Source of the DNA: a virus
Length of the DNA stretch: 20,176 bases
Virus record (IMG/VR): IMGVR_UViG_3300023210_002086
Location: 1 to 20,176 of that record
Reading direction: 5' to 3' (one strand)
Made by a program: the position numbers and the translations under genes. The notes below the pieces were generated by a model. That model saw only the letters and a program-made list of their open reading frames with translations. It searched no databases and was not told the origin of the DNA. Within the stretch, counting starts at the first letter, position 1; each line of letters opens with the position of its first letter. This document shows positions 1 to 20,176 of this stretch, piece after piece.

Positions 1-127
1 AACCAGTGTGATTTACCATGTCTGTATCCGAGCTTTCTGTCAACATCACGCCAAAATCGTAATTGATGGTCTCCAGTAAACTGGAATTTGAGGTTAACGA
101 CCTCTAATTCATCTGGTGGTAGTAGAG
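1..127. repeat. Left copy of 127-bp terminal direct repeat (circular overlap)
   Basis: Bases 1-127 are identical to bases 20050-20176. An exact terminal repeat of 127 bp equals a common maximum assembly k-mer, so it most likely marks a circular contig rather than a biological terminal repeat. The repeat lies inside a coding sequence that reads continuously when the ends are joined, which supports a 20,049-bp circle. A true short terminal repeat cannot be excluded from sequence alone. Confidence 0.95.
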
Positions 128-188
128 ATTTAAGGATGTCTGATAACTCGTTTATTTCAACCGTTTCTGGTGTTCTGTCGAATTCCAT
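1..188 (-). CDS. Sigma region 4-like small protein, copy B (5' part; gene crosses the circular junction)
   Basis: The start codon is ATG at 188-186, preceded by a strong SD (GAGGAGAAAGGAG). The reading frame stays open to base 1 and continues, after circularisation, to a TGA at 19989-19991, giving 82 aa that begin MEFDRTPETVEINEL. The second half (LPPDELEVVNLKF, then FWRDVDRKLGYRHGKSHWLW and a basic tail) has the layout of sigma-70 region 4: a short helix, a helix-turn-helix and a trailing basic helix. It is about 55% identical by hand alignment to the protein at 519-815. It follows the HNH gene at 209-538 by 20 bases and precedes the small-terminase candidate, so one transcript is likely. 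A role in late transcription or in DNA recognition for the adjacent nuclease is inference; it could also be a generic phage DNA-binding protein. Confidence 0.8.
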   Translation of the reverse strand, partial: MEFDRTPETVEINELSDILKSLLPPDELEVVNLKFQFTGDHQLRFWRDVDRKLGYRHGKSHW

Positions 189-208
189 TAGTCTCCTTTC
201 TCCTCAAT

Positions 209-538
209 TTATCCTTCCTTCATTAGTTTAGTGTATTCTTTTTCATAATTCCACTTTTTTTTCTTTTCATATTTGAAATTCTGAGCGAGATGCCATTCCT
301 GAGGAAGGTTATCCTTCATCCATTCTGAGGACCATATGGGGTTACCGTGAAATGACTCATACCCAAATTTGTGGTGACTTGGACACAACAGCACCAAAAA
401 TTGGAAGGGAGCGTATTTCTCACCTAAGATATGATGACAGTCAAGCTTACCCTCTGCACCACATACAGCACATGTCTTATATTTCAATCTGCATATATCC
501 TTGGCGAGTTTCATTACTTTAGCTCTGGTGTATTTCAT
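209..538 (-). CDS. Small HNH endonuclease, copy B
   Basis: A 109-aa protein with the HNH/zinc-ribbon pattern: C23-x2-C26, then DCHH (H35, H36), then LCPSHHKFG (C52, H55, H56). These fit one zinc-binding site plus the beta-beta-alpha metal nuclease core. The start at 538 was preferred over the ATG one codon upstream because it lies 6 nt after AGGAG and matches the paralogue at 817-1143. It overlaps the end of the upstream sigma-4-like gene by 20 bp, so translation is probably coupled. It is about 84% identical to the copy at 817-1143, mainly differing in the region after residue 75. Small HNH proteins next to terminase genes help cleave packaging ends in HK97-like phages; that role is plausible here. 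A free-standing homing nuclease is the alternative. Confidence 0.88.
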   Translation of the reverse strand: MKYTRAKVMKLAKDICRLKYKTCAVCGAEGKLDCHHILGEKYAPFQFLVLLCPSHHKFGYESFHGNPIWSSEWMKDNLPQEWHLAQNFKYEKKKKWNYEKEYTKLMKEG

Positions 539-815
539 CATCTTCTCCTAATATTCTGAGTGTTGACTTAAGTAGTTCCTCAAAGTCTGCGAGGTTAATC
601 TTAAGTTGCTCATTAGCATTATGCCATAACATGTTCGATTTGCCATACCTAAAGCCCATATGTCTGTCCAAATCACGCCAAAAATTGAAATGATGGTCTC
701 CTGTGAAAGCCCATTTAAGTTCACATATCTCACGCTGCTCTGGTGTGAGTAGGTTCAAGAGAATGCTGCTCAACTCCTCATTCTCAAGCGTCTCTGGTGT
801 TCTGTCATATTCCAT
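519..815 (-). CDS. Sigma region 4-like small protein, copy A
   Basis: A 98-aa protein starting MEYDRTPETLENEEL. The start sits one base after the stop of the HNH gene at 817-1143. Residues about 23-75 (LTPEQREICELKW, FWRDLDRHMGFRYGKS, LWHNANEQL) match the arrangement of sigma-70 region 4 helix-turn-helix domains. It is about 55% identical to copy B across the first 71 residues and has a longer acidic C-terminus (LGEDDEIHQS). There is no region 2 or region 3, so it cannot be a complete sigma factor. What is seen is a putative DNA-binding helix-turn-helix; promoter recognition or a DNA-specificity subunit for the HNH partner is inference. The gene's 3' end overlaps the start of HNH copy B. Confidence 0.85.
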   Translation of the reverse strand: MEYDRTPETLENEELSSILLNLLTPEQREICELKWAFTGDHHFNFWRDLDRHMGFRYGKSNMLWHNANEQLKINLADFEELLKSTLRILGEDDEIHQS

Positions 816-816
816 T

Positions 817-1143
817 TTATCCTTCCTTCATTAACTTAGTGTATTCCTTCTCATAATTCCATTTCTTTTTCTTATATTTAAAATTATTTATAATGTGCCA
901 ATCTAAGGGCATATTATCCTTAATCCACTCTGATGCCCATATAGGGTTACCGTGAAATGACTCAACCCCAAATTTGTGGTGACTTGGACACAAAAGCACC
1001 AAAAATTGGAAAGGTGAAAATCGCTCTCCTAGGATATGATGACAATCAAGCTTACCCTCTGCACCACACACGGCACATGTCTTATATTTAGCCTTGCACA
1101 TATCTTTGGCTAATTTCATTACTTTATTTCGGGTATATTTCAT
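817..1143 (-). CDS. Small HNH endonuclease, copy A
   Basis: A 108-aa protein with the same metal ligands as copy B: C23-x2-C26, DCHH with H35 and H36, and C52 followed by H55 and H56. Its ATG overlaps the stop of the replication-initiator gene (TAATG), so the two are likely translated together. It has one residue fewer than copy B in a lysine run near residue 92. The next gene downstream is the sigma-4-like protein at 519-815, making the repeat unit HNH then sigma-4-like. Zinc ribbon and HNH catalytic motifs are intact, so nuclease activity is expected. The biological target (packaging site, origin or foreign DNA) is unknown. Confidence 0.88.
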   Translation of the reverse strand: MKYTRNKVMKLAKDMCKAKYKTCAVCGAEGKLDCHHILGERFSPFQFLVLLCPSHHKFGVESFHGNPIWASEWIKDNMPLDWHIINNFKYKKKKWNYEKEYTKLMKEG

Positions 1144-2147
1144 TATGCCCTTTTCAAGATACTTAATGCATATTTAACTGGATATTTCTTAGTATAACTC
1201 TTCATAAGTGCTTCTTTTATAGCATCTTCCGACTTATCTGATAATTTCCTTAGCTCATTATGCCATTCCTTAATCTTATCTAAATCAACTGGCTTATGTT
1301 GGACTTTAACACCACTTATTTTATCTAATACTTTCTCATGGTCAATATATTTCTCCTTTAATTGCTTGGTCACAAATGCGATAGGGTTTAAGGCACCTGC
1401 ATAATTTGCATCTTTAAGTAATTTATTTTTAATTTCTATTCTTTTGACAGGGAGCTTAAGCGACCTGCAATTCTTCTCAATCTCTAGTAAATCTTTAATA
1501 TCATCTGGATGCATACCGTATAAAATTGAGTCTTCTAACCCACCATCATTTATAAATTGAGTTCCGCCATTTGCATGAGTGTGTAATCCATATTCCTCAA
1601 GATGTTGTATTTCTTCCTCTATAGAAACAAGCGTAGAAGCCTCTATCTCTACCAAGGCGACCTCTGCACCCTCTATCACCACGATAGGCTCTTCAGCGGC
1701 AACCTCCGGCGATTCTATCATCTCTACGTTGAGCTTCTTAGTCCATCGCTCAATCTTTCTTTTATCTGATAGCGATTTCTTTCCTTTAGATATTATGCCA
1801 AGACTTACCATGGCTCGTTGGATACCTGAAGGTCTTTTTTCTTTAGCCATTGATTTGATTGTTGCACGTATAGATGAAATAATCCAATTACCTAAATTCA
1901 ACTTATCTGGCTTTTGTACATTCTTAATATAGCCCCATTTACACAAAGTGGTTTTATCCACAATTATGTTATAATCAGAATTGATGTATCCATACTTAAT
2001 TAAATTATGGACATGTCTTTTTACTGTAGCTGTATCACAACCAGCTATCCTCTTAATTGAGTTCTGTGTCTTAGCACCATCTGAGATGAATGAGAAAAAC
2101 AACTTGTCGTTTGTACTACAATCTGTATCTAATTTGAATAAATTCAT
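1143..2147 (-). CDS. Candidate replication initiator (winged-helix N-terminus, DnaD-like C-terminus)
   Basis: A 334-aa protein. The ATG at 2147 follows the purine-rich stretch GACAGGGAA; an upstream TTG at 2195 would add a poly-Phe leader from a T-run and was rejected. Residues about 25-55 (IKRIAGCDTATVKRHVHNLI) look like a winged helix-turn-helix. A Glu/Val-rich linker lies at roughly 140-190. The C-terminus (AIKEALMKSYTKK, YALSILKRA) resembles the closing helix of DnaD-type primosome domains, a weak match. It sits beside five iterons and A/T-only tracts, the usual setting for an initiator acting at a nearby origin, as lambda O does. A 14-bp inverted repeat covers its start codon, suggesting autoregulation. 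Family assignment is inference; a transcription regulator is the main alternative. Confidence 0.65.
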   Translation of the reverse strand: MNLFKLDTDCSTNDKLFFSFISDGAKTQNSIKRIAGCDTATVKRHVHNLIKYGYINSDYNIIVDKTTLCKWGYIKNVQKPDKLNLGNWIISSIRATIKSMAKEKRPSGIQRAMVSLGIISKGKKSLSDKRKIERWTKKLNVEMIESPEVAAEEPIVVIEGAEVALVEIEASTLVSIEEEIQHLEEYGLHTHANGGTQFINDGGLEDSILYGMHPDDIKDLLEIEKNCRSLKLPVKRIEIKNKLLKDANYAGALNPIAFVTKQLKEKYIDHEKVLDKISGVKVQHKPVDLDKIKEWHNELRKLSDKSEDAIKEALMKSYTKKYPVKYALSILKRA

Positions 2148-2215
2148 TTCCCTGTCTTTTCCCTGTCCTGTAAAAAAAAAAAAAGTAAGCAACAAGAGAC
2201 CAAGACAGGGAAATG
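2145..2215 (-). promoter_or_regulatory. Perfect 14-bp inverted repeat over the initiator start codon
   Basis: CATTTCCCTGTCTT (2145-2158) and AAGACAGGGAAATG (2202-2215) are exact reverse complements separated by 43 bases. In the minus-strand mRNA the 3' arm contains the SD-like AGGG and the ATG of the initiator, so a hairpin would hide its start. A third copy of CAGGGAA (minus strand, 2159-2166) lies in the loop and could pair with the same 5' arm instead. The loop also holds 13 consecutive A (2172-2184, plus strand). The element could be an RNA switch, an operator bound by a dimeric initiator, or both. Confidence 0.65.
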
Positions 2216-2940: not shown

Positions 2941-3414
2941 ATGAAAATATGTAAGAAATGTAAAGAAGAGAAAGAGTTATATGAATATGGTAAAATAAGA
3001 AAAAATAAGGATGGTCGTAATAATTTATGTCTTGTTTGTGCAGGTGAGCATAGAGATAAACTACATAATGAGCACCCAGAAAAAAGGCTAGTATCAAACA
3101 TTCAGAATTATGCCAGACAGCTTAATATGATAGATAAACCTATCAAGTGTTCTATATGTGACTATCAGCCAGACAATATTGGTCAGATATGGGCATATAC
3201 ACCAGACTATAATAAACCTTTAGATATTATATGGTGCTGTCGAAAATGCCACAAATTACAAACCAGACTAGAAATTGAAATTGATATCTCACGTCTAAAT
3301 GTTTTAGCTGGATGGATGGGATATGATTGTATTCAAAAGTTTAAGCATAATTCGAAGAGAAGAGTTCTAGAAGAACAGCTAAAAGAAAATTATCCAAATC
3401 TTATTTTAGCGTAA
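2941..3414 (+). CDS. Zinc-ribbon protein with degenerate HNH-like core
   Basis: A 157-aa protein. An N-terminal zinc ribbon uses C4-x2-C7 and C30-x2-C33 with DGRNNLC, as in many phage HNH and endonuclease VII-like proteins. A second metal site is C70-x2-C73 with C100-x2-C103-H104. The stretch PDYNKPLDIIWCCRKCH matches the phage HNH signature DY-x-KPL...W-C-x2-CH. However, the one or two histidines usual just before DY are replaced by Y86 and T87, so catalysis is doubtful. The start is supported only by a weak GAAG upstream. It is the first gene of the plus-strand block and its 3' end overlaps the 46-aa minus-strand ORF by 14 bp. It may be DNA-binding only. Confidence 0.75.
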   Translation: MKICKKCKEEKELYEYGKIRKNKDGRNNLCLVCAGEHRDKLHNEHPEKRLVSNIQNYARQLNMIDKPIKCSICDYQPDNIGQIWAYTPDYNKPLDIIWCCRKCHKLQTRLEIEIDISRLNVLAGWMGYDCIQKFKHNSKRRVLEEQLKENYPNLILA

Positions 3415-16165: not shown

Positions 16166-17387
16166 TTTGTGCTCCTTCTGCGGGTTCTTCCGCAACTATT
16201 GGTTCTGTGATTGATTCAACGATTGGTTCTATAACTTGTTCTGGTAGAACTTCTGGTACAGGTATACTCACCTCTTCCAGTAATGCGTTAAGGTCTATGC
16301 TGCCGGGATTCTGTTTAATGAGTTCCAAGGCAACCTGTTGTTTATAAATTTTGTCCGAATTAGAAATAGGTGCCGCAATGAAGTTAACCTTATCAGCCTC
16401 TTCTTTGCTAATCATAAGCTCAATGTATGGCTTGGCAATCTGAGTCTCAAACTGCTCTGTGATATAATCTGATTGCATTTCCATGTAATCTAGGCTTACA
16501 TTACGATGTTCCACCGATTCCGCTAAAGTTCCTCCTCCAGAACTTTCCAAAATTGTTCTTTCTGGTAGGGTAAAACTACGTACCAACGCTGAATCAAGGG
16601 CTTTGAGCCTCTGAATGAAGGATGCCTGACGCTGTACAGGGTCTCCTACGTACTCTATTTCCCAGTTTGTACCAGCCGTATTAGGCATTCCGGGTATCTC
16701 AAGTCCATTATTAGCAACAATTGCGGACCCTCCACCGTCTAATGCTACGTCTAAATCCTCTGCTAATTCGAAATTAGTGGCCTCTGCACCGTCTGGACCG
16801 ATACCTGTACCACTTGGATTAGGTACTTTTATCAATCTATTGGAACCAGCAACCTTCAAATCGTATCTCTGAGCACCTTCTTCAGTAGTAACGTAAGCAT
16901 CATACGCCTCACGGCATATTTCTGTTGGTGGTACTCCGTAGTAATACCCCGGCTCTACGTTTAATCCGAGGAACGCTGCCGATTCTTTTGGAATAAATAT
17001 ATCTTTAGGAATAGGTTGAGTACTATACAATCCAGATATTTGGATTCCCATGTACGTCCCATTGTCGTCCACGACAATGCTCACGCTTTCACTGAGCAAT
17101 GGTTTCAGAACTAACTTTAAATCTGCATCCAGAAATTGTTCAAAACCTTGGTAGCCGAAACTGTACATTCCGTTTATAGCATCTGTAACATAGGTTTGTC
17201 TTAATTTCATTAATTCTGTAATCAATTCCCATGTCTCATCCGACGCATCGGGTGCCGAAACGCTCCAAGAACTCCTTATAATAGGACTAGAACTTAGGTT
17301 AAATGCCAGATTAACTGTAGCATGTTTCTTTATGGTACGATATGTTTCGTGTGAAACGGGTAGATTAGGGTATACTATACTAGGCAT
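16152..17387 (-). CDS. Portal protein
   Basis: A 411-aa protein with SD AAGGAGACGAC, overlapping the terminase end by 8 bp. It has a basic-aromatic start, a central alpha/beta region, and from about 285 a portal-like stretch: LDSALVRSFTLPERTILESS, GTLAESVEHRN, then a long helix (DYITEQFETQIAKPYIELMI), similar to Mu gp29/DUF935-type portals. The C-terminal 50 residues are acidic and Pro/Glu-rich (EPIVESITEPIVAEE). It would form the twelve-fold ring at the capsid vertex for DNA entry. The terminase-portal-scaffold-capsid order strongly supports the call. Confidence 0.85.
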   Translation of the reverse strand: MPSIVYPNLPVSHETYRTIKKHATVNLAFNLSSSPIIRSSWSVSAPDASDETWELITELMKLRQTYVTDAINGMYSFGYQGFEQFLDADLKLVLKPLLSESVSIVVDDNGTYMGIQISGLYSTQPIPKDIFIPKESAAFLGLNVEPGYYYGVPPTEICREAYDAYVTTEEGAQRYDLKVAGSNRLIKVPNPSGTGIGPDGAEATNFELAEDLDVALDGGGSAIVANNGLEIPGMPNTAGTNWEIEYVGDPVQRQASFIQRLKALDSALVRSFTLPERTILESSGGGTLAESVEHRNVSLDYMEMQSDYITEQFETQIAKPYIELMISKEEADKVNFIAAPISNSDKIYKQQVALELIKQNPGSIDLNALLEEVSIPVPEVLPEQVIEPIVESITEPIVAEEPAEGAQNDES

Positions 17388-18831
17388 GTCGTCTCCTTCT
17401 TATGTTGCGGCGGGGTCTGATTGATATAAACGAGTTATTTGTGTTGGTTCGGGTGGTTAATGGGAACTCCTGATGACAAAAATAGCCAATATTATCCATA
17501 CAGTGGCCCACATTCCCTCGGGTATCTACTTTGTTGTTAGTTCCTTCACGGTAGTAAACACTAACTATATCCTTCAATATGTTAGTACATGAAGGGTCAA
17601 TAAATAAGGACCGCCTTCCACTTGCTGAACATAACTTGGCATTTACCGCTGCCATCCTATCTGCTACTGGTGGATTTGCGGCTCGGTAGTGTATGGTTCG
17701 GCCAGCATTGAGGAACCGTTCATCATTGACAATCTGCTGATGGTCCGATAGGGCCGCAGCGGAGTGTCTGTTCTGACTTGAGGCGTCACCGTAGAACTTA
17801 AAACCAGCCTTGTGGTCCCCGTATCTCTCCCATAATTGCTGTAATGTGTACCTAGTATTGGTGTTTCTAACATATAATTCATCTATAATGTTTATGATAT
17901 CACCTTCCATTTGGATAATAGAGACCGTCATTGGGTTCACATTAAAATCCCATGTGAAGATTAATGGCTTATTTTTATCATAATGACATGGCCTTATATT
18001 GTTTTCACTGAATGCGTAATAGCATAGCCCTTCAGCACTTGTGAACCTCGCCATGAATCTTTGCTGGAATAGGTCAGCAGGTAACGTCTTTTTCGCAAGC
18101 TCAAAAGACTCCATTGGGTATGCAGGGTTCTCAATACTTGGCCACACGAAAGCACTAATATCCGGGTCTCCAGCTTGTGCCTTTTCTATGCATTCAGAGA
18201 ACCATCCTACTTTGTATGGCGTGGAACAGCCGTAAATTTTACCCTTTCGAACCATAGTCCTCTGTATCATTTCCTCATATACCGCTCTAGGCATCTGTCC
18301 ACATTCGTCCATAGCTACTGCGTGAGCCTGTCCACCTACTAATCCCAGTACATTGTCTGAGGATAATGTGTAAATAATACCTAAATTATTAGGTAATGTG
18401 TATTGACTCTTAGACTCTTTGTATGTACCCCTGAAGGCACTTGCATTAAATACGTCTAAGAATGGAGGGACACTGGCTCTCATTAGGATTTTATGAGTAG
18501 GTGCTATTAGAAACCCTAGGAAACCAGATGTGTTGCCAGCATCCCTATATTCAGTAACCTGTTTGAGTAGCCAAAGAGGCATGGCACAACTCTTGCCGCC
18601 GCCGGTTCCGGCGCAGGCGAGGGTTATCTTGGTATCAGATAAGACACTCAAACCTTGCTGATAGTGACAGTCAAATCGGCGATTGCCCTTCTCATCTATC
18701 TCGCCCCAATCGTATCTTAACCGTTTGCCCTTTTTGTCATACTTAGTTACAGCAAAGTCCGGTCGTTCATATGACAATTCTTCAATGTTTGTCTCTTCCG
18801 GTTCAATTTTTTGGGGCTTTTTTTTTGCCAT
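17380..18831 (-). CDS. terL: Terminase large subunit
   Basis: A 483-aa protein with both activities visible. ATPase: Walker A AGTGGGKS (74-81), Walker B VAMDE (172-176) and a coupling motif YGCSTPY (200-206). RNase H-type nuclease: FTWDFN with D295, FYGDAS with D349, and HCMDNIGYF with D446, the expected acid triad. It powers DNA packaging through the portal and cuts concatemers. The ATG at 18831 lacks a clear SD, but no other start lies before the Walker A motif. It opens the structural operon after the 545-bp non-coding region. A basic tail (RPRRNIRRRRHA) may bind DNA. Confidence 0.95.
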   Translation of the reverse strand: MAKKKPQKIEPEETNIEELSYERPDFAVTKYDKKGKRLRYDWGEIDEKGNRRFDCHYQQGLSVLSDTKITLACAGTGGGKSCAMPLWLLKQVTEYRDAGNTSGFLGFLIAPTHKILMRASVPPFLDVFNASAFRGTYKESKSQYTLPNNLGIIYTLSSDNVLGLVGGQAHAVAMDECGQMPRAVYEEMIQRTMVRKGKIYGCSTPYKVGWFSECIEKAQAGDPDISAFVWPSIENPAYPMESFELAKKTLPADLFQQRFMARFTSAEGLCYYAFSENNIRPCHYDKNKPLIFTWDFNVNPMTVSIIQMEGDIINIIDELYVRNTNTRYTLQQLWERYGDHKAGFKFYGDASSQNRHSAAALSDHQQIVNDERFLNAGRTIHYRAANPPVADRMAAVNAKLCSASGRRSLFIDPSCTNILKDIVSVYYREGTNNKVDTRGNVGHCMDNIGYFCHQEFPLTTRTNTNNSFISIRPRRNIRRRRHA

Positions 18832-18902
18832 ATTTTTGGTGGATTTCTGTAAGGATTCCCGCCCGACACTAATTTCTATCTTAAATCGCCGTTTTCGCTT
18901 CG

Positions 18903-18920
18903 CTCAAACGTCTCAAACGT
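18903..18920. repeat. Two tandem copies of CTCAAACGT
   Basis: CTCAAACGT at 18903-18911 and 18912-18920, directly followed by CTCC. It lies in the predicted leader of terL. An upstream GCTTCGCTCA stretch recurs near 2383 in the origin-like region. Confidence 0.6.
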
Positions 18921-18929
18921 CTCCTACTC

Positions 18930-18958
18930 ATTATAGATAGTCTATGACCAATCAAATA
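18930..18958 (-). promoter_or_regulatory. Possible promoter of the structural operon
   Basis: On the minus strand a perfect TATAAT (18935-18930) lies about 100 bp before the terL ATG. The matching -35 position (18958-18953, TATTTG) is poor, so an activator or an altered specificity factor might be needed. Confidence 0.35.
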
Positions 18959-19066
18959 TAGTTATAATTTTATTAATAATGGGATAATGTTATTAAGAAC
19001 GGGTTAAGAATGAGTGTAACATAACTCACATTATCGGACGTTAACGCTATAAGATGAGTAATGATA

Positions 19067-19095
19067 AACACTTACGTGCGTAGCACGTAAGTGTT
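19067..19095. other. 13-bp-stem hairpin, 3-base loop
   Basis: AACACTTACGTGC, loop GTA, GCACGTAAGTGTT: perfect pairing. No T-tract follows on either strand, so it is not a typical terminator. A protein-binding or packaging-site role is possible. Confidence 0.7.
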
Positions 19096-19190
19096 AGGTC
19101 TTCAACTATTCTTGAGTTGTTCATGAACTATCAGAGATGAGGACGCCCATAATTAATAACAAATAGATATTGTTCAGAATTGGTATAAGA

Positions 19191-19219
19191 TAATCCCTTC
19201 AGCTTTGCTGAAGGGATTA
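19191..19219. other. 13-bp-stem hairpin, TTT loop
   Basis: TAATCCCTTCAGC, loop TTT, GCTGAAGGGATTA: perfect pairing. No T-tract follows on either strand. It is the second such stem within 150 bp. Confidence 0.7.
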
Positions 19220-19294
19220 GTTGTCATTAGTTATGACTCATCATGATTAATCATAAACTATTTTATATGCTACACGCATCAATTGTAGCGCTAA

Positions 19295-19338
19295 TGTAAC
19301 AATTTTGTAACATTTGTGATACAATTCTGATACAATTA
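19295..19338. repeat. Four 11-bp tandem repeats
   Basis: Units TGTAACAATTT (19295-19305), TGTAACATTTG (19306-19316), TGATACAATTC (19317-19327) and TGATACAATTA (19328-19338). The period is exactly 11 bp, one helical turn, so bound proteins would line up on one face. It lies 38 bp downstream of the 67-aa gene and upstream of terL. Confidence 0.75.
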
Positions 19339-19376
19339 GAGAATAAATTGAAACAAATAAAAATGAGCGAGGGCGG

Positions 19377-19613: not shown

Positions 19614-19958
19614 TTATTTACCTTTCTTCTTGTCCTCAGTAGGTGGCAACACATTGACTACGATAGGATGGGTCTCTGCCTTACCTACACCAATCTCTAT
19701 TGTGGATTTACTACGATTAGGCTCTATAAACTTAGTATAGAACAGGTATGTATCGTTGTCTATTAAGTCCTGTAGCATAGCCATTATCGTATCCTGATTC
19801 ACCTTCAAGCGTAAGAGTTCTTGTATCATGTTCTGACACTTTTTAATGCCATCAGTCTTCCCTTTAGGGCGACCTCTTTTGTTGCCACTTGTGCCGGGTT
19901 GAAATCCGTACTTACGGGCTACTTCTCGAATCGCTTTGTCTTGTTTTTCTGTTCTCAT
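19614..19958 (-). CDS. Candidate terminase small subunit (PGxSGNxxGRPKG type)
   Basis: A 114-aa protein starting MRTEKQDKAIREVARKYGFQ. It carries FQPGTSGNKRGRPKGK (19-34), a motif shared by a family of phage proteins (DUF5681-like) often found next to, and sometimes annotated as, terminase small subunits. A helical middle (MIQELLRLKVNQDTIMAML) may drive oligomerisation; the C-terminus is basic (PPTEDKKKGK). The basic GRPKG segment resembles an AT-hook and could bind DNA. SD is weak. It lies upstream of terL with the 67-aa gene and repeat region between, which suits recognition of a packaging site. Confidence 0.65.
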   Translation of the reverse strand: MRTEKQDKAIREVARKYGFQPGTSGNKRGRPKGKTDGIKKCQNMIQELLRLKVNQDTIMAMLQDLIDNDTYLFYTKFIEPNRSKSTIEIGVGKAETHPIVVNVLPPTEDKKKGK

Positions 19959-19988: not shown

Positions 19989-20176
19989 TCAATCGAAATA
20001 ACCGTTCTCCTCTAAATATTGGTTAAAACGCCTATTAGCCTTACTCCATAACCAGTGTGATTTACCATGTCTGTATCCGAGCTTTCTGTCAACATCACGC
20101 CAAAATCGTAATTGATGGTCTCCAGTAAACTGGAATTTGAGGTTAACGACCTCTAATTCATCTGGTGGTAGTAGAG
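19989..20176 (-). CDS. Sigma region 4-like small protein, copy B (3' part at the contig end)
   Basis: This is the same gene as at 1-188. Here the frame is open from the contig end to TGA at 19989-19991, ending SKANRRFNQYLEENGYFD. Bases 20050-20176 duplicate 1-127, so only 19989-20049 is new. The stop lies 30 bases before the small-terminase start. Confidence 0.8.
   Translation of the reverse strand, partial: LLPPDELEVVNLKFQFTGDHQLRFWRDVDRKLGYRHGKSHWLWSKANRRFNQYLEENGYFD
20050..20176. repeat. Right copy of 127-bp terminal direct repeat
   Basis: Exact second copy of bases 1-127. Joining the contig at this overlap restores the 82-codon gene listed at 1-188 and 19989-20176. Confidence 0.95.

Follow-up and report, generated by a model that had tools for sequence, protein, structure and literature searches.

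A tandemly duplicated gene pair of a predicted HNH nuclease and a sigma-region-4-like protein beside the terminase genes of a circular 20-kb phage genome

In Streptococcus phage P3681 (KY705256), the genes for a late transcriptional regulator (Ltr) and an HNH protein are followed, across the circular junction, by those for TerS and then TerL. The cos phages of S. thermophilus carry a terminal HNH gene downstream of the regulator, which is absent from the pac phages; the same paper lists phages that have two HNH genes (PMC5601072). In phi13, Ltr triggers expression of the packaging genes and of the structural ones (PMC13123087). A passage of PMC5304195, citing Kala 2014, describes the HNH protein as a part of the packaging machine in many phages. 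Thus Gram-positive cos phages are known to have regulator, HNH and terminase genes as neighbours (PMC5601072; P3681), and the layout reported below is, in kind, not one that cannot be named, as the initial annotation of this DNA had it.

The window analysed here is a stretch of 20,176 bases, a single IMG/VR record of an uncultured bacterial virus (IMGVR_UViG_3300023210_002086). An identical 127-bp direct repeat at both ends (1-127 = 20050-20176) is an assembly overlap; the window represents a single circular phage genome or contig with a unit of 20,049 bp, and the reading frame of sig2 is therefore joined across the record ends. On the minus strand the order is Rep-like gene, HNH1, sig1, HNH2, sig2, DUF5681 gene, a 74-aa gene, a 545-bp non-coding stretch, TerL, a gene placed where the portal gene is expected, and the gene for the major capsid protein (Table 1). 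The full cassette HNH1-sig1-HNH2-sig2 is read through the circular junction (1143->1->19989) and lies between the replication gene and the probable small terminase gene. The initial annotation had assigned it to 1-1143; this span holds HNH1, sig1 and HNH2 but cuts sig2, which continues to 19989. Its placement next to terminase genes stands, the DUF5681 gene lying directly downstream of sig2 and TerL about 1.2 kb further on.

Table 1. Coordinates of the cassette and its neighbours, in the order of minus-strand reading
Feature	Position	Strand	Length	Remarks
Replication initiator-like gene (HTH_36)	1143..2195	-		Pfam HTH_36 E 9e-5, under gathering score
HNH1	817..1143	-	108 aa	Predicted Zn-ribbon/HNH nuclease; motif CAVC...CHHI...LLCPSHH; 85% identical to HNH2
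sig1	519..815	-	98 aa	Sigma-70 region-4-like; AlphaFold2 pLDDT 79; sigma region 4 heads the PDB matches
HNH2	209..541	-	110 aa	Second copy of the predicted nuclease
sig2, first part	1..188	-	82 aa in all	Runs on over the junction to 20049-19989
sig2, remainder	19989..20176	-		Bases 20050-20176 repeat 1-127; A2 profile match
DUF5681 protein	19614..19958	-	114 aa	Probable small terminase subunit; Pfam PF18932 E 6e-7
74-aa gene	19601-19377	-	74 aa	Between DUF5681 gene and 545-bp non-coding stretch
Non-coding region upstream of terL	18832..19376		545 bp	Repeats exceed those in shuffles
TerL, large terminase subunit	17380..18831	-		phrog_10250 E 2e-21; phrog_2 E 8e-21

The genes of this run are tightly packed. 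The Rep stop codon ends on the A of the HNH1 ATG, a single base separates the HNH1 stop codon from sig1, and the sig1 gene, whose product has an extra acidic C-terminal tail, extends 23 bases into the start of HNH2. Between HNH2 and sig2 there is a 20-base leader with a GGAG ribosome-site-like sequence. Since all genes from rep through HNH1, sig1, HNH2 and sig2 to the terS-like gene overlap or sit within about 30 bases, they are probably expressed as one transcript.

The Rep-like gene, which heads the run, has weak matches to phage replication initiators. Inverted TTTCCCTGTC / GACAGGGAAA repeats at 2136-2224 surround its probable start (ATG near 2147) and resemble an autoregulation site; five iteron-like copies of GTCAAAACCTCC are located upstream of the gene at 2720-2840. 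Iterons and Rep-like gene together look like a replication origin of the plasmid type, carried here by a tailed phage of 20 kb; a phage-plasmid is possible. Near the origin, the arms of a 27-nt inverted repeat with CGTCCCCGGAGGGGCTTGAG (89% complementary) are found at 2325-2351 and 2583-2609, 231 bp apart. A third, different nuclease gene of EndoVII/HNH-like type (phrog_2340, E 5e-12) occupies 2941-3414 on the opposite (+) strand.

Both HNH copies have C24xxC27, CHHI (35-38) and LLC53xxH56H57 in invariant form, and the metal/zinc-ligand residues are kept in both. Pfam HNH models gave no match above cut-off for HNH1 or HNH2; the PHROG matches comprised a weak one to phrog_7566 (E 2e-5), where no function is assigned, and still weaker ones to HNH PHROGs. 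The HNH2 model, of low confidence (pLDDT 50), places a strand at 34-39, a strand at 47-52 and a helix at 54-62, which is the beta-beta-alpha order. At this pLDDT of 50, its neighbours include EcoKMcrA (Z 5.7), Cap5 (Z 5.1) and T4 EndoVII (Z 3.9), interspersed with unrelated proteins, and Cas9 HNH as well. The zinc-ribbon/HNH motif and the beta-beta-alpha-metal structural neighbours speak for a probable HNH-type nuclease, as already proposed in the initial annotation. In an alignment with DUF222-type HNH proteins, the canonical central Asn (DNLVLLC) is replaced by Phe48, with Gln47 adjacent. Catalytic competence of HNH1 and HNH2 is likely but, with the canonical asparagine missing, not assured.

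The partner is predicted to adopt the four-helix helix-turn-helix fold of sigma-70 region 4. The AlphaFold2 model of sig1 reached a mean pLDDT of 79, which is good for so shallow an alignment, and has helices at 7-20, 25-36, 43-53 and 59-88. In VIA-align, sigma region 4 chains top the list with Z 8-9 (up to 9.0), and region 4 of M. tuberculosis SigD (3vfz) superimposes with Z 8.0 and an rmsd of 1.3 A over 61 residues of the partner model; Z values near 8 are common for helical proteins, and the point rests on the uniformity of the list, the helix-turn-helix arrangement and the low rmsd. The best Foldseek E value was 0.09, none reaching 0.001, yet the leading rows were sigma factors. Several phage proteins of 71-106 aa annotated as sigma70 region 4 are among the structural neighbours. 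The partner has no Sigma70_r4 profile match in Pfam (E up to 10), PHROG or NCBIfam. Hence the earlier label 'sigma-4-like' is borne out by the predicted fold but not by sequence profiles, and the helix-turn-helix, on whose presence the initial annotation had made its DNA-reading partner depend, is predicted.

This fold also bears on the possibility that the sigma-4-like proteins are TerS-like recognition subunits, or adaptors recruiting HNH and TerL to cos; the DUF5681 gene would then encode something other than TerS, or a second part of TerS. TerS proteins often have helix-turn-helix domains, the cassette is located directly before terS/terL, and the packaging role of HNH proteins cited above would fit. 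However, the fold matches are to sigma region 4, and the terS position is already taken by the DUF5681 gene; a similar GRPKG protein is encoded just upstream of TerL in L011. We therefore consider such an adaptor role to have little probability.

The tandem duplication of the HNH-partner unit is real, and both genes were duplicated together: the duplicated block aligns at the DNA level over the whole two-gene unit. HNH1 and HNH2 are identical at 92 of 108 residues (85%), sig1 and sig2 at 42 of 79 (53%), within about 2 points of the roughly 84% and 55% aligned by hand in the initial annotation. The unevenness it had pointed out is significant, with 16/108 differing residues in the HNH proteins versus 37/79 in the partners (Fisher p = 3e-6). 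A comparison of substitution rates (Nei-Gojobori), which had been proposed at the same time, gave a similar dS for both genes, namely 1.06 for HNH (bootstrap 0.60-2.40) and 1.38 for the partner (bootstrap from 0.72 with no upper limit; 1.15 when restricted to the first 70 codons), values near or above 1 being close to saturation and allowing only rough duplication ages. Where both copies encode the same residue, the codons differ at 23/85 positions in HNH and at 15/38 in the partner (p = 0.21). The similar synonymous divergence indicates that the two gene pairs are about equally old and differ in constraint. In contrast, dN was 0.093 (0.048-0.146) for HNH versus 0.37-0.39 for the partner (0.27-0.55 on 0.39), and omega was 0.09 and 0.28, respectively. 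Both gene pairs are thus under purifying selection, which is stronger on the nuclease.

The initial annotation had taken the nuclease to be either conserved or gene-converted. The first alternative agrees with the stronger constraint. Gene conversion is possible but neither supported nor required for the uneven divergence, because dS is similar in both genes and no significant conversion tract was detected; sliding windows showed a stretch of low pS at HNH codons about 41-75, the clustering of which was not significant (permutation p = 0.285).

Mobile HNH genes are frequent in phages, and HNH1 and HNH2 could be free-standing, homing-type endonucleases that took their neighbour with them and were duplicated together with it. 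The existence of two close copies and of the further HNH/EndoVII-like gene at 2941-3414 would be in line with this. Yet purifying selection on both copies is strong, both overlap or abut their neighbours and keep the same partner, and a search of the 110-aa proteins for a DNA-binding module of the homing type was negative, which makes a homing origin improbable.

The initial annotation had further suggested that the partner sets the target of the nuclease, i.e. that HNH and sigma-4-like protein form a nuclease/specificity complex and the duplication created two complexes with the same cutter and different targets. Each nuclease copy is indeed directly trailed by its own partner, and the nuclease is strongly constrained and the partner much less so. 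The recognition helix differs in sequence and in net charge, +1 in sig1 and +4 in sig2; that of sig2 is more basic and more sigma-like. This difference in charge is the sole suggestive item. The partner changes, however, are evenly spread and not enriched in the helix-turn-helix (15/30 there versus 17/42 elsewhere, p = 0.48), helix 2 has diverged to the same extent as the recognition helix, and an omega of 0.28 indicates constraint rather than diversifying selection. We know of no HNH nuclease that is aimed by a separate sigma-region-4 protein. The claim that the partner sets the target thus found no support, and a nuclease/specificity complex appears unlikely; that the two nucleases would be aimed by interchangeable sigma-region-4 proteins at two cut sites, e. 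g. cos-like or host targets, is more doubtful still. If the complex did exist, it would represent a novel type of nuclease made of two parts, in which the subunits that read the DNA can be exchanged.

Searches for relatives of HNH or the partner among viral contigs, with the single proteins and both two-row alignments as queries, and in phage and plasmid collections returned none. The same holds for the 16 records reached through TerL, no positive control being available among the other records, and for a pattern search with the HNH motif. The partner pattern GDHxxxFWRD matched 14 stretches, all of them chance matches on inspection, and a scan of genome contigs with the HNH core found nothing but DUF222-type HNH proteins, which have the general motif in common with it, and no match to the partner. 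A sequence profile search of solved structures gave nothing useful for the cassette proteins. The major capsid protein had no relatives in IMG/VR; the nearest capsid and terminase relatives come mostly from phages of Gram-negative hosts (about 25-36% identity). The TerL relatives that served to reach further records are only 22-29% identical.

The best explanation in our view, to which we assign a probability of roughly 0.45, is a packaging HNH nuclease combined with a sigma-region-4-like protein that activates or modulates late transcription, the pair having undergone a single tandem duplication. According to this tentative reading, the unit would have been duplicated long ago, and sig1 and sig2 have probably drifted or specialised under weaker constraint since. 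The sigma-like products, made from the presumed common transcript, would target a promoter inside the 545-bp non-coding stretch that precedes terL, activating or modulating the late (packaging and structural) genes, and the HNH product would work with the terminase in cleavage at cos. The 545-bp region contains two perfect hairpins with 13-bp arms (19067-19095 and 19191-19219), short palindromes and tandem GAGACGTTTGA, and both direct and inverted repeats are more numerous than in shuffles; it is a candidate late promoter and/or cos region as judged from its sequence.

The packaging and late-regulator reading is favoured by the sigma-region-4 fold, the HNH motif, the constraint and the analogous layout in P3681 and S. 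thermophilus phages. Several observations speak against it: the gene order is reversed, neither protein has sequence similarity to Ltr (DUF1492) or HNH of P3681, the canonical HNH asparagine is missing, and the phages with the nearest capsid and terminase genes mostly infect Gram-negative hosts. To our knowledge, phages of such hosts do not usually rely on Ltr families for their late switch. An acidic protein like sig1 (pI 4.8) would be unusual as a DNA-binding activator. As to packaging, no cos site was identified in the genome, and distant TerL relatives had no HNH-motif ORF in the upstream stretches covered, which is weak evidence, several of them having little upstream DNA.

If the packaging and late-regulator reading holds, the regulator-plus-HNH packaging arrangement of Gram-positive cos phages would extend to an orphan 20-kb phage whose cassette protein families are absent from the libraries searched. 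Compared with the packaging HNH proteins HK97 gp74 and GVE2 HNHE, HNH1 and HNH2 are similar in their putative Zn-ribbon HNH motif, their small size and a location next to the terminase genes, as in cos-packaging HNH proteins of the HK97 gp74 kind, but unlike these they occur in two copies, miss the canonical Asn and have only weak PHROG matches. The partners resemble stand-alone phage sigma-70 region-4 proteins in size and fold; unlike them, they are paired in tandem with HNH, and no sequence relative was found. The partner gave no profile match to the Ltr late regulator families (DUF1492/ArpU/RinA; the superfamily is named RinA/ArpU/Ltrb), to which it does not belong by sequence, and its hhalign probability with P3681 Ltr was 0.2%. 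In contrast to P3681, the nuclease here precedes the regulator, the pair is duplicated, and the proteins have 108-110 and 82-98 aa compared with 172 aa each. As in the Ltr-HNH-cos-TerS layout of Gram-positive cos phages, though, regulator, HNH and terminase stand together across the circular or cos junction. By this analogy we propose with moderate confidence, and with no claim of membership, that the cassette works like the Ltr-HNH-terminase layout; it looks like a doubled version of the known arrangement of late regulator and packaging nuclease.
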